This document shows, one piece after another, positions 11,518 to 29,569 of a DNA stretch of 34,362 bases. The stretch spans positions 1 to 34,362 of the forward strand of contig JAGORB010000006.1 in NCBI GenBank assembly GCA_018063065.1. The letters run 5' to 3'. Made by a program: the position numbers and the translations under genes. The notes under the pieces are model-generated. The model saw only the letters and a program-made list of their open reading frames with translations, did no database searches and was not told where the DNA came from. This stretch comes from Minisyncoccota bacterium. GTDB taxonomy: Bacteria; Patescibacteriota; Minisyncoccia; Phycocordibacterales; XYD1-FULL-46-19. Every line of letters begins with the position of its first letter. Position 1 is the first letter of the stretch.

Positions 11518-11552
11518 AGGCCCCTTCTTCGGAACGGGGCCTGCTTTTTTTA
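11518..11552 (+). terminator. Intrinsic terminator upstream of alaS
   Basis: Stem AGGCCCC/GGGGCCT (11518-11524 with 11536-11542), then GCTTTTTTTATT. The T-run is also where a -35 box for alaS would have to lie. Confidence 0.85.
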
Positions 11553-11567
11553 TTGTTTAAAATCGGG

Positions 11568-11573
11568 TAGGAT
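11568..11573 (+). promoter_or_regulatory. Probable -10 box of alaS
   Basis: TAGGAT (11568-11573), 8 bases before the ATG, so a near-leaderless transcript; the only candidate -35 box falls in the T-run of the previous terminator. Confidence 0.4.
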
Positions 11574-11581
11574 ACAAGCTA

Positions 11582-13459
11582 ATGACTGCTAATGAGATTA
11601 GGGCCAAATTCTTAAAGTTTTTTGAGGCCAGAGGGCACGCCATTTTGCCCTCCTCCAGTTTGGTCACCACTGATGACAAGGGTGTTACTAATTCTACCTT
11701 GTTTAATACCGCCGGCATGCAGCCGCTTATTCCATACCTCTTGGGAGATCCTCATCCCTCGGGTAAACAAGTAGCTAGCGCTCAAAAATGCTTAAGGACA
11801 GTAGATATTGATGACGTGGGCGACAACACTCACAACACCTTCTTTGAGATGCTCGGCAATTGGTCCCTTGGCGACTACTTTAAAGAAGAAGCTATTAAAT
11901 GGAGCTTTGAATTTTTAACTTCTAAGGAAGATGGTTTGGGATTAGATCCCAACAGGCTTTATATCACCGTGTTTGAAGGTGACGAGAATGCCCCTCGCGA
12001 TGACGAAGCCTTTAATATTTGGAAGCAATATGTACCTGAGCATCGCATTTATTTTATGGGTGCCAAGAGTAATTGGTGGGCCGCCGGCGACAATGGCCCT
12101 TGTGGACCAGACACGGAGATGTTCTACGATATTACTCCCGAGGGCTTGGGTGATTTAACTAAAGAGCAATATATTAAAGCCGATGACGAGCGCAAGGTGA
12201 TAGAAATTTGGAATGATGTCTTCATGCAGTATCAAAAGGAGGATGGTAAGGTGGTGGGTAAATTAAAGAATAATAATGTGGACACCGGCGCCGGCCTCGA
12301 GCGCCTATCTATGATTATGCAAAATGTGGGTAATGTCTATTATACGGATTTATTTAGAAAATCTTTAAGAATACTAGAGCAAGCGCATTCAGATTCTTTC
12401 TCCCACTTTATTTCCACAGAAACAGAAAAGGATAGGTCAATAAGAATAATCCTGGATCATACTCGAGCAATTTTATTTTTAGCTGCAGATGGAATTATTC
12501 CTTCAAATAAAGATCGAGGATATGTAATGAGAAAGTTAATACGTCGTCAAGCTGTGCATATGCGAAAATTAGTTCTAGGTCCACGGGATACTTTTATTAA
12601 CCTTCTTGATTCTTTCGTTAAGGTATATGTTGATCAATATCCTGAGGTTTTCAATGTGAAAAAAACAAATTATAGTGTAATTTTAGATGAGATGGATAAG
12701 TTTTCTGAAACTGTAGAAGAAGGTTATAAGGAATTTGAAAAGTGGTATAGAGGACCTATAGCTTATTGGGGTGAGGCTACAAGAGATGAAGTCGAAGATA
12801 TGATGAGTAAAAAACCAAAGATAATGCCTGGCCTAATAGCTTTCAGATTATTTTCTACATATGGATTTCCTATTGAACTTACTTCTGAAATTGGCAATGA
12901 AAAAGGAATAGAAATTGATATGGAAGGTTTTAATAAAGCTATGAAAGAACATCAAAAACTTTCACAATCTGGCGCGGGGCAGAAGTTTAAGGGCGGGTTA
13001 GCTGATGACTCTGAAGAAGTGGTGAAGTATCACACTGCCACTCACTTGCTTAACCAAGCCCTACATGAAGTGTTAGGCGAGCATGTAGAGCAGCGAGGGA
13101 GTAATATTACCGCCGAGCGACTACGCTTCGACTTCTCTCATCCACAAAAATTAACAGAAGAAGAGAAGAAAAAAGTAGAAGAGATTGTTAATGAGAAGAT
13201 TAAGGCTAATTTGCCGGTTAAATTTGAGATATTACCTAAAGTGGAGGCCGAGCAGACGGGTGCCCGCCACATGTTTAATGAGAAGTATGGGGATGAAGTG
13301 AAGGTTTATTATATTGGTGACTCTCTAGAATCTGCTTACTCTAAAGAATTTTGTGGTGGGCCACATGTAGAAAACACTGGTGTTTTGGGCACCTTCAAAA
13401 TTACTAAAGAAGAAGCCGTCGCCGCCGGCATCCGGAGGATAAAAGGCGTACTTGTCTAA
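11582..13459 (+). CDS. alaS: Alanyl-tRNA synthetase lacking the C-terminal C-Ala domain
   Basis: 625 residues against about 875 in E. coli. The class II catalytic core is intact (FLKFFEARGH, FNTAGMQPLIP, THHTFFEMLGNWS-type block, GPCGPDTEMF, NTGAGLERL-type motif 3). The editing domain is also intact, with HTATH (His484, His488) and CGGPH (Cys591, His595). The protein ends right after the editing domain (GIRRIKGVLV), so the coiled-coil/C-Ala part that aids dimerisation and tRNA binding is absent. Between about 12340 and 12970 the codon use changes sharply: eight ATA and eight AGA/AGG codons, A/T third positions, against CGC/GCC-rich flanks. The segment seems imported by recombination. Function should be normal. 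Confidence 0.96.
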   Translation: MTANEIRAKFLKFFEARGHAILPSSSLVTTDDKGVTNSTLFNTAGMQPLIPYLLGDPHPSGKQVASAQKCLRTVDIDDVGDNTHNTFFEMLGNWSLGDYFKEEAIKWSFEFLTSKEDGLGLDPNRLYITVFEGDENAPRDDEAFNIWKQYVPEHRIYFMGAKSNWWAAGDNGPCGPDTEMFYDITPEGLGDLTKEQYIKADDERKVIEIWNDVFMQYQKEDGKVVGKLKNNNVDTGAGLERLSMIMQNVGNVYYTDLFRKSLRILEQAHSDSFSHFISTETEKDRSIRIILDHTRAILFLAADGIIPSNKDRGYVMRKLIRRQAVHMRKLVLGPRDTFINLLDSFVKVYVDQYPEVFNVKKTNYSVILDEMDKFSETVEEGYKEFEKWYRGPIAYWGEATRDEVEDMMSKKPKIMPGLIAFRLFSTYGFPIELTSEIGNEKGIEIDMEGFNKAMKEHQKLSQSGAGQKFKGGLADDSEEVVKYHTATHLLNQALHEVLGEHVEQRGSNITAERLRFDFSHPQKLTEEEKKKVEEIVNEKIKANLPVKFEILPKVEAEQTGARHMFNEKYGDEVKVYYIGDSLESAYSKEFCGGPHVENTGVLGTFKITKEEAVAAGIRRIKGVLV

Positions 13460-25237: not shown

Positions 25238-25864
25238 CTATCTAAGTCTCATAAAAGGTTCTATGGCTGCTCGAAGTAGCTCTCCAACCTTATCTCCTAA
25301 TTCTCCATGTTCTTCACACAGAGACATCAGGATCGGGTTTACAAATCTTACCGTCTCATCCCGCTTCCTGAGTTGTTTTTCTTCAGAGCAGGACTGGAGG
25401 GTGCGAGTGTTATGGATGCGGTCGACCAGTTTTATTAACTTAGCCTCCCATCTCCCCTCCAAAACACTTTTAAAGTGGAATTGCTTCCTCTCCTCAGCAT
25501 CCTTAAAACGGGGATCATTTTTGCTGGGCTTGGTAACAGTAACCACAATTTCCCACACACGATCGCCAAAGTTCTTCCTAATTTGATCACTGGTAAGGAT
25601 ATAGGTATCTTCCAAAATATCATGGAGCAGGGCAGCGATTACTAAATCGCGGTCCGTTACCCCTAATTCATCCACCAAGATTAAAGCAGTGGCTCGGGGA
25701 TGCTCAAAGTAACGTTCACCCGATTCTCGCTTTTGAACCTTGTAACCATGACCGTACTTGGCCCAATTGTAGGCTCCCTCCACCATCTCTAAATCTGCAG
25801 GGGTCAACCTATATTTAAACCTCTTAAAGAAACTCTCTCGATTTTCAACTTGTTCATCTGGCAT
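25238..25864 (-). CDS. Small HD-domain (p)ppGpp hydrolase-like protein (Mesh1/SAH type)
   Basis: 208 residues, with only the hydrolase-type HD domain of RelA/SpoT proteins: His55 in FEHPRATA, His81-Asp82 with Glu85-Asp86 in LLHDILEDT, and Asp148 in KLVDRIHNTRTLQ. These match the metal- and substrate-binding residues of SpoT/Mesh1 hydrolases. There is no synthetase, TGS or ACT domain. Members remove the 3' pyrophosphate from (p)ppGpp or, in some cases, act on NADPH or pApp. Its SD, GAAGGAGG, is exactly the loop of a hairpin before the ATG. The promoter overlaps an inverted repeat shared with the divergent small RNA. The family call is good; the true substrate is open. Confidence 0.85.
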   Translation of the reverse strand: MPDEQVENRESFFKRFKYRLTPADLEMVEGAYNWAKYGHGYKVQKRESGERYFEHPRATALILVDELGVTDRDLVIAALLHDILEDTYILTSDQIRKNFGDRVWEIVVTVTKPSKNDPRFKDAEERKQFHFKSVLEGRWEAKLIKLVDRIHNTRTLQSCSEEKQLRKRDETVRFVNPILMSLCEEHGELGDKVGELLRAAIEPFMRLR

Positions 25865-25927: not shown

Positions 25928-25932
25928 GTTAA
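25913..25932. promoter_or_regulatory. Inverted repeat between two divergent promoters (candidate operator)
   Basis: TTAACTT-AAATGC-AAGTTAA, two perfect 7-base arms. It covers the -35 box of the HD hydrolase promoter and the start of the -35 box of the small-RNA promoter, so one bound dimer could control both. Confidence 0.55.
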
Positions 25933-25957
25933 CAACTTTAAACTAAAGTAATAAGAT
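25929..25957 (+). promoter_or_regulatory. Promoter of the anti-SD small RNA
   Basis: TTAACA (25929-25934), 17 bases, TAAGAT (25952-25957). The expected start at about 25964 lies three bases before the 5' arm of the RNA's closing stem. The spacer holds a second inverted repeat, ACTTTA-AAC-TAAAGT (25935-25949). Confidence 0.6.
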
Positions 25958-25963
25958 GTTGGC

Positions 25964-26101
25964 ATAGGGTAAGCAACCTGCATTCCGAACGATTGCGACA
26001 GCGTTCGCTTCGAGTCCAGATCACCTCCGATTCCCAAGCAGAAGCTTACCCTTAAGACCCAGCCGCTACGCATTTCAAACGTCAAGGCTGGGTCTTTTTT
26101 A
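25964..26101 (+). ncRNA. Predicted structured small RNA carrying an anti-Shine-Dalgarno sequence
   Basis: No ORF fills this region. The predicted transcript has a closing stem GGGTAAGC/GCTTACCC (25967-25974 with 26044-26051), an inner stem CTGC/GCAG (25978-25981 with 26038-26041), and a hairpin CGAACG/CGTTCG (25986-25991 with 26002-26007). The segment 26008-26037 stays unpaired in this fold and contains GATCACCTCC (26019-26028), identical to the end of bacterial 16S rRNA that pairs with SDs. It ends in a terminator with an 11-bp stem (AAGACCCAGCC/GGCTGGGTCTT, 26054-26064 with 26086-26096) and six T. Promoter, structure and terminator support a real RNA; its function is inferred. Confidence 0.65.
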
Positions 26102-26102
26102 T

Positions 26103-26131
26103 TTGACTCTAATTTAGAAGGAGAATAGAAT
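26103..26131 (+). promoter_or_regulatory. Promoter of the 228-residue unknown gene
   Basis: TTGACT (26103-26108), 17 bases, TAGAAT (26126-26131), beginning straight after the T-run of the small RNA's terminator. Leader of about 30 bases with AAGGAGAGG. Confidence 0.75.
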
Positions 26132-26168: not shown

Positions 26169-26855
26169 ATGTTCATCACAACTGAATTTTCTGGCATTGG
26201 GAATTATGGGGTCTGTACCATTATTCCAAGAGACATTCTCGAGAACTCAATGGACATGCTCCAAAAATCTTCTCGTGGAGAAAATTGGGAAAACTTTGAT
26301 CTGAACCACTACCGACCCCTAGGGATCAAAAATTGCTTCCGCATAATATCAGAGCAAGATGAGTTCAAGGTAAAGTTATCTTGGCTCTCACACCACTTAG
26401 CGGATGCTTTGAGATCTCACGGCCTTCTCATGCTTTGTGCAGCAGAGCTAATGACCAAAGACAGAAGTGGGGCTGGTCTAGAAATCCATTCAGCTCAAAT
26501 ATCTAATGGTTGGTGCCTACAGGCCAACTTGGGCGACCAGATCTGGGATGTGATGGAAAGTCCTAAGATCTCAGAAATTTTGCCCCAAATCAATTCGGAG
26601 ATACGCACCTGGTGGGAAGATCAAGAAGGAGTGGCTCGCCATGGGCAATACGCGATTATTTTCTCAGGGAAAGATGGCCTCACCCTTCAAATCAACCAAC
26701 CAACAGGTAACGGTGTCTGGGTTGCTGGCAGCCGTAAGAGTGATAACACTAACCAAATCACGGACCACAATACTGATACCTCCTTCCAATGCTTCGCTCA
26801 TGTTTTATCACTCTGTGTAGTCTTGAAGCATTGCCGGAAGGTGGTGTTTGAGTAA
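26169..26855 (+). CDS. 228-residue soluble protein of unknown function
   Basis: Begins MFITTEFSGIGNYGV, preceded by a good SD (AAGGAGAGG) 6 bases before the ATG. No signal peptide, membrane helix or familiar motif. Mixed composition with several Trp, Cys and His, two hydrophobic helical stretches (about residues 75-95 and 208-220), and an acidic central part. I do not recognise the family. It has its own promoter and terminator and follows the anti-SD RNA, with which it may be functionally but not transcriptionally linked. Codons are more even than in the GCC/CGC-rich core genes nearby, in line with an accessory origin. Confidence 0.75.
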   Translation: MFITTEFSGIGNYGVCTIIPRDILENSMDMLQKSSRGENWENFDLNHYRPLGIKNCFRIISEQDEFKVKLSWLSHHLADALRSHGLLMLCAAELMTKDRSGAGLEIHSAQISNGWCLQANLGDQIWDVMESPKISEILPQINSEIRTWWEDQEGVARHGQYAIIFSGKDGLTLQINQPTGNGVWVAGSRKSDNTNQITDHNTDTSFQCFAHVLSLCVVLKHCRKVVFE

Positions 26856-27595: not shown

Positions 27596-28084
27596 ATGAG
27601 AGTGTTAGGGTTAGTAAAAAGGCTGTTACTGGGTCCACCAGACCTAGCAACATTGAAAATCAAGGTCCTGGACTACCGGCACCCCGCCTTGGTTAAGCGC
27701 CTAGTTAAGAAGCTTGGCCTTACCCACGAAGAAGCCGAGGAGGTTTTCCTCGGTATGAAGCAGTTCCTATTCTTGTGCGGAACAAAAAGCAGGAAAGGTG
27801 CTCTAGCCCCACAATCCACGTTGGTTGATGAAGCTTGGCATCATTTCATGCTTTTCTCGCGCGATTATCACCGGTTCTGCTTCCAATACTTCGGTCGCTT
27901 GATTCATCACCAACCGACTGACGAAGGGCAAGATGACGGGGCACCTTGCCTCAACCGCACCAAAGAGGGATTGAGTCAGGAGTTTAAAACCTCCTTCAAT
28001 CCCGCGCTCGCATCCGCGGTTCCCAGTTGTATTGTAGTTCCGGCCGGCGACTGTAGCGGGACCACAAATTGCCAAGATGAATAG
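27596..28084 (+). CDS. WH...RDY...IHHQP protein with a Cys-containing tail, paralogue 1
   Basis: 162 residues. Core shared with the gene at 29171: a helical region (residues about 31-60), CGT at 61-63, VDEAWHHF with Trp81-His82, RDY at 89-91, FC at 94-95, FG at 99-100 and IHHQP at 103-107. The spaced Cys/His/Trp suggest a metal site or a compact helical domain. I associate the WH-F-RDY-C-FG-HH pattern with proteins resembling the glycine-rich-domain (GRDP) family, but that is weak. The tail (about 115-162) is different from the paralogue and has Cys at 118, 145, 153 and 159. AAGGAG SD 9 bases before the ATG; own promoter and terminator. Confidence 0.75.
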   Translation: MRVLGLVKRLLLGPPDLATLKIKVLDYRHPALVKRLVKKLGLTHEEAEEVFLGMKQFLFLCGTKSRKGALAPQSTLVDEAWHHFMLFSRDYHRFCFQYFGRLIHHQPTDEGQDDGAPCLNRTKEGLSQEFKTSFNPALASAVPSCIVVPAGDCSGTTNCQDE

Positions 28085-29170: not shown

Positions 29171-29569
29171 ATGGGTCATGTTGAATCTTGTGTCTCTTGC
29201 GAAACGGAAGCTGGCCTTAAGGAGAGAAAGAAGGCTAAAAAAGCCGCGGTCTTGGCTTACAAAAACGAGGAAGTCGTAAAGCGCCTGAAAAGGGAGCTTG
29301 ACATCCCTCTAATTGAAGCTCAAAAACTTTTTCAAGAGCTCCTGAAGTTTATGTGGAGGTGTGGTACGAGTAGAAAATCGCATCGTCCTCCGTCAAAAAA
29401 GGTCGACGAGGCGTGGCACACCTTCATAATCTTCACCAGGGATTACGCCGACTTTTGCCAAAAGCACTTTGGACATTTTATCCACCATCAGCCGGACCCT
29501 GAAAAAGAGATTAGTAGCAAGAGAAATTCTACTCCTTGTCGTTCTCGTTGTCACAATACAAGTAGATGA
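29171..29569 (+). CDS. WH...RDY...IHHQP protein with a Cys-containing tail, paralogue 2
   Basis: 132 residues, same core as the gene at 27596: helical region (about 28-62), CGT at 64-66, VDEAWHTF with Trp82-His83, RDY at 90-92, FC at 95-96, FG at 100-101, IHHQP at 104-108. The N-terminus has CVSC (Cys7, Cys10), absent in paralogue 1, and the short basic tail has Cys123 and Cys127 (TPCRSRCHNTSR). SD AAGGAG, own strong promoter and a 13-bp terminator. Shared core with divergent ends suggests a common scaffold with different partners. Function unknown. Confidence 0.75.
   Translation: MGHVESCVSCETEAGLKERKKAKKAAVLAYKNEEVVKRLKRELDIPLIEAQKLFQELLKFMWRCGTSRKSHRPPSKKVDEAWHTFIIFTRDYADFCQKHFGHFIHHQPDPEKEISSKRNSTPCRSRCHNTSR

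Follow-up and report, generated by a model that had tools for sequence, protein, structure and literature searches.

Features of the locus

The element under study lies at positions 25964-26101 of the window (the whole stretch of DNA analysed, 34,362 nucleotides), between two genes led by a Shine-Dalgarno (SD) sequence, one of them divergent from it and the other downstream (Table 1). The promoter-like site of the original prediction is present but weak, and its 11-bp terminator is borne out. A start near 25964, as expected from this promoter-like site, would place +1 just 5' of the closing stem, which had been read as 8 bp and is predicted to be one A-U pair longer. The CGAACG/CGTTCG hairpin that had been proposed does occur in the sequence, although the minimum-energy fold pairs this part in another register. 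The ten-base identity to the SD-binding end of canonical 16S rRNA is exact. The motif had been said to lie in the only long unpaired part of the RNA, which does not quite hold: in the predicted fold its ACCTCC is mostly unpaired (0.74-1.0), but its GATC pairs for the most part with GATT (unpaired 0.14-0.37). CCTCC has one copy in the core, which offers one ACCUCC loop only. The element as a whole is predicted to fold at -53 kcal/mol (z -7.2).

Table 1. Features of the locus and its neighbours (window coordinates; MFE in kcal/mol)
Feature	Position	Strand	Basis or remark
SD-led gene, stand-alone HD-domain (RelA/SpoT-type hydrolase) protein, divergent, leader AAGGAAGGAGGCTTAAATG	25238-25864	-	Pfam HD_4, 5e-19
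Promoter-like site TTAACA-17-TAAGAT	25929-25957	+	consensus scan, 9/12 matches; weak on its own
Structured core	25966-26053	+	predicted MFE -29.9, z -4.5
P1, 9 bp	25966-25974/26044-26052	+	predicted fold
P2, 4 bp	25978-25981/26038-26041	+	predicted fold; absent from the original prediction
P3 hairpin	25986-26012	+	predicted fold
P4 hairpin (weak)	26019-26032, helix 26019-26022/26029-26032	+	predicted fold
GATCACCTCC, identical to the canonical bacterial 16S rRNA 3' tail and Era recognition site	26019-26028	+	exact match
Intrinsic terminator, 11-bp stem GACCCAGCC.../...GGCTGGGTC, then T6	26054-26100	+	predicted MFE -22.7, z -6.1
Promoter-like site TTGACT-17-TAGAAT, 3' of the terminator	26103-26131	+	10/12 matches; probably serves the next gene (ATG 26169)
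SD-led downstream gene, 228 aa, leader AAGGAGAGGCTAAATG	26169-26855	+	no Pfam match

The consensus scan gave three promoter-like sites in a region of 321 bases, against 0.5 expected. The strongest sign of an RNA gene is the terminator. The ORF list of the locus holds no forward ORF 5' of it, and being on the plus strand it cannot serve the gene to the left, since that gene is transcribed away from it. That no protein gene uses this terminator speaks most strongly for an independent RNA, while the promoter-like site that the downstream gene has for itself argues against the RNA being the leader of that gene. The features of an independently transcribed sRNA (its own promoter, an intrinsic terminator and no ORF) are thus all predicted from the sequence, and a small, folded, independent non-coding transcript at 25964-26101, ending at the terminator as originally proposed, is likely.

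Elsewhere in the window, positions 27596-28084 and 29171-29569 hold diverged paralogues with the shared motif VDEAWHxFxxFxRDYxxFCxxxFGxxIHHQP, both SD-led and without a Pfam match; the former has an SD-led orthologue in a relative of this genome, G006.

Homologues and the ten-base match

Conservation in relatives had been named beforehand as the test that could refute the proposed role, and none was found by blastn or covariance model at the sensitivity available. Using blastn, the locus retrieved only itself from 61 genomes and nothing from phage and plasmid records. A covariance model of the core (rough, as it was built from a single sequence) likewise recovered no locus but its own from 297 genomes of the order or, with laxer filters, from 16 genomes of the family, and it had no credible match in 0.7 Mb of other loci; in these searches the genus is represented by the present genome alone. 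One candidate of this model in G006 (L156, E 1.3) consists of unrelated hairpins, and of seven exact 16-mers in IMG/VR none fits the model. Rfam 15 has no family in the window at the gathering threshold (6S, SRP, tmRNA and riboswitches included), and a relaxed threshold gave none of relevance. Outside the window, a type III hammerhead ribozyme scores just above the Rfam gathering score (L102:5872-5926, contig C32 of this genome, minus strand). Relatives of the neighbouring genes stand without the RNA: the 228-aa gene has a relative only in Candidatus Vogelbacteria MJ-2014_bin-1736, where the upstream region has a cold-shock-like gene but lacks such an RNA.

When the core is shuffled, the canonical tail is matched over at least 10 contiguous bases in 137 of 200,000 cases (7e-4). 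This is low for one RNA and one motif, before the motifs and loci screened (many motifs, over the whole window) are counted. In this genome GATCACCTCC has 2 copies against 0.94 expected, and over 61 relatives the ten-mer occurs about once per genome, about twice as often as a reversed-pattern control, with no single conserved copy apparent. This genome and G006 together have six copies, of which three fall within ORFs that run on the opposite strand. G006 has two intergenic copies, and at least one of them is the complement of an extended SD at a minus-strand start. In the order, some copies lie in ORFs or are SD complements, and the ten-mer as such is not linked to an RNA.

The 16S rRNA tail and Era

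According to the original prediction, the RNA would imitate the SD-binding end of the ribosome or compete for a factor that binds it. In this genome the 16S rRNA gene is on contig C19 at 11529-12988, where Rfam aligns it over its full length; the gene ends in ...GGAAGCTGTTCGTGGAACTATTTC. Its end, GTGGAACTATTTC, is without CCTCC, and it has GGAACTATTTC where the canonical tail is GATCACCTCC. An intron hiding the true tail was considered and rejected, as the next 590 bases or so past the 16S end hold no CCTCC and the Rfam alignment is full length. In fact, CCTCC is present in none of the 30 readable 16S tails of the order (this genome included, both strands read), which read GTGGANTATTTC-like. 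In the wider class the tails form a partly decayed series, from GGATCACCTCC via GGATCATCTCC and GGATTTTCTCC to complete loss, and of 240 genomes sampled from the phylum 121 keep the canonical tail, which makes its absence from the order a loss. One genome, G143, has two 16S tails (contigs C2 and C6), one lacking the canonical anti-SD and the other carrying it together with a different helix 45; a foreign contig is the probable cause.

Loss of CCUCC from the 16S tail across a clade, as in this order, is described for Bacteroidetes such as Chryseobacterium, for Mycoplasma and for Carsonella, in passages of PMC6107228 that do not name Patescibacteria among such groups. Such bacteria are usually without SDs as well, whereas an SD-led minority persists here.

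Era (TIGR00436) was not found above the curated cut-off in any of 61 genomes of the order, the matches covering only the GTPase half and belonging to GTPase domains of other proteins. The present genome is 84% complete, and complete relatives agree on the absence. This result is in line with a review that reports the loss of Era from most CPR bacteria and gives its recognition site as GAUCACCUCC (PMC10582724, citing Tu 2011). The ten bases of the RNA are identical to this site and to the canonical 16S 3' tail, but in the RNA they come without the preceding helix 45. An RNA mimicking the anti-SD of its host would find no such sequence in the host 16S rRNA, and a decoy for Era, the best-known reader of GAUCACCUCC, no Era in this genome. 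With the tail lost and Era not found, competition for a tail-binding factor has neither site nor factor, and neither proposal is supported for this host.

SD-led genes and pairing with the loop

Most genes had been said to be leaderless or without an SD, with the SD-led ones being a mostly accessory minority, and counts at start regions agree. At 506 ATG starts, TATAAT stands at leaderless distance 57 times versus 7, and AAGGAG at -20 to -4 stands 34 times, versus 5 and 2 in control stretches. Counting SD-led ORFs with ATG starts only gives 38, against 15 with the reversed motif (all counts here are approximate, gene starts having been set by a simple ORF rule without a gene caller). ORFs that have no homologue in G006 are more often SD-led than those that have one (27/246 versus 11/318, p 6e-4; G006 was read to ~636 kb of ~700 kb). 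AAGGAGG-N4-9-ATG exceeds its control in 15 of 15 other genomes of the family, and an SD recoded to the new tail (GAAATA) was rejected, being unenriched (4 versus 2-3). In this lineage, whose ribosomes have no anti-SD, leaderless or SD-less core genes therefore stand beside a smaller number of SD-led genes, most of them accessory.

That the ACCUCC loop might block the SDs of accessory mRNAs, those of the two flanking genes included, in the manner of the cuckoo RNAs, keeps a minor chance. The loop is accessible in the predicted fold, the SD-led accessory genes are real by the above count, and both neighbours are among them. However, of the duplexes that 26010-26042 forms with about 500 leaders, 296 fall below -10 kcal/mol, inside the range of 30 shuffled loops (241-365), so that in silico the loop pairs with leaders no better than shuffled loops do. 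The base after CCTCC is G, which limits pairing to GGAGG and excludes the AAGGAG consensus of the genome, leaving the common AAGGAG leaders only GGAG/CUCC. Moreover, there is a single motif, and the RNA has no homologues found, though SD-led genes occur throughout the family.

Like the cuckoo/alpha-r14 sRNAs of alphaproteobacteria (NfeR1, CcsR), the predicted RNA is short, ends at a terminator and carries a C-rich motif resembling an anti-SD in a hairpin loop. In those sRNAs, which are widely conserved, each of three hairpins presents CCUCCUCCC (PMC10746234), in contrast to the single ACCUCC loop found here, in a host without an anti-SD. Neither three CCUCCUCCC hairpins nor a motif conserved while the stems drift was seen, no homologue being available from the 297 genomes of the order or the 16 of the family. 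The RNA is outside the cuckoo family and would act at most like an antisense sRNA.

Other explanations

Intergenic hairpins abound in this genome, and the element might be a structured spacer without function, its promoter having arisen by chance; this is unlikely. The core structure, significant alone, is unexceptional for this genome: its fold is equalled by 8% of random intergenic 88-mers after correction for composition, and by raw energy it ranks 779th of 8266 intergenic windows, which, together with the conservation that was not found, would suit a spacer. A strong terminator in an orientation serving no protein gene would not, and neither would a closing stem that starts beside the expected transcription start.

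Quite unlikely, too, is a 5' leader or attenuator of the downstream 228-aa gene, in which a folded sensor would be followed by a terminator that is opened by read-through. A structured element and terminator 68 bases upstream of an SD-led start do suggest such an arrangement, but the promoter-like site of the gene itself follows the terminator, the predicted folds hold no evident antiterminator, and the only homologue of the gene is without such a leader.

The boldest reading makes the RNA a trans-acting anti-SD, i.e. an unlinked RNA with the lost sequence that guides ribosomes without an anti-SD to the SD-led accessory mRNAs, or holds these as a regulon. The 16S rRNA has lost CCTCC, yet SD presence is common to reciprocal best hits of this genome and G006 far above expectation (3/6, Fisher p 1e-4), in orthologues that are 36-44% identical. 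That SDs are kept at orthologous genes despite this loss means that something may read them, and the RNA bears the exact sequence of the lost tail. Still, SD-led genes occur in every other genome of the family without this RNA, the ten-mer is unconserved and no ribosome-binding feature is known, which makes both versions highly improbable.

Three further candidates were rejected. SRP RNA does not fit, as the family has no RF00169 match, the RNA has no domain IV motif, and a universal RNA should have surfaced in relatives by covariance model. For the SD of a minus-strand gene (GGAGGTGATC on the other strand), the nearest minus-strand ATG is about 34 bases off and opens only about 22 codons. A type III toxin-antitoxin RNA would have tandem repeats, which are absent, and the homologue of the neighbouring gene stands without the RNA; the AlphaFold model of the neighbouring gene's protein (pLDDT 37) is too poor to use. 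As an observation in its own right, the small bacterial SRP RNA (RF00169) was detected in 0 of 16 genomes of the family, complete ones included, and is either very diverged or lost there.

Interpretation and significance

The best explanation, and a reasonably probable one, is that the locus is an orphan non-coding RNA unit whose match to the 16S tail is coincidental and whose action, if any, would be antisense at a few leaders. It builds on what is established here, namely the anatomy, the predicted fold, the terminator, the absence of both anti-SD and Era, and the lack of detectable homologues; we infer from it both the transcription of the RNA and any target. Promoter, folded core and intrinsic terminator would together form a transcription unit for an RNA of about 135 bases, which, as far as is visible, would be restricted to one genus or strain. 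The ten-base identity is most likely a coincidence rather than mimicry, since there is neither an anti-SD-bearing ribosome to mimic nor Era to compete for. If the RNA acts, the likeliest way would be that its C-rich ACCUCC loop pairs, as a short antisense, with a few GGAGG or GGAGGU leaders, and such pairing would reduce the expression of a handful of accessory genes. Against this explanation, the ten-base match is unlikely for one RNA and lies where a presented motif would be expected, in a predicted loop, and the predicted promoter is weak. Even so, the anti-SD-like loop is probably coincidental, or weakly used at most.

The RNA adds one further candidate to the orphan sRNAs, and the host context matters more. 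A description of anti-SD loss with retained SD-led genes was not found for Patescibacteria in the literature, which was mostly that outside subscription journals. Here, a patescibacterial order (the family of Candidatus Vogelbacteria among it) has lost the 16S anti-SD, has no Era, and has a small, orthologue-consistent, strongly SD-led accessory set. It can now be asked whether these SDs are left over from gene transfer, serve as purine-rich leaders that need no anti-SD, or are the sites of another reader.
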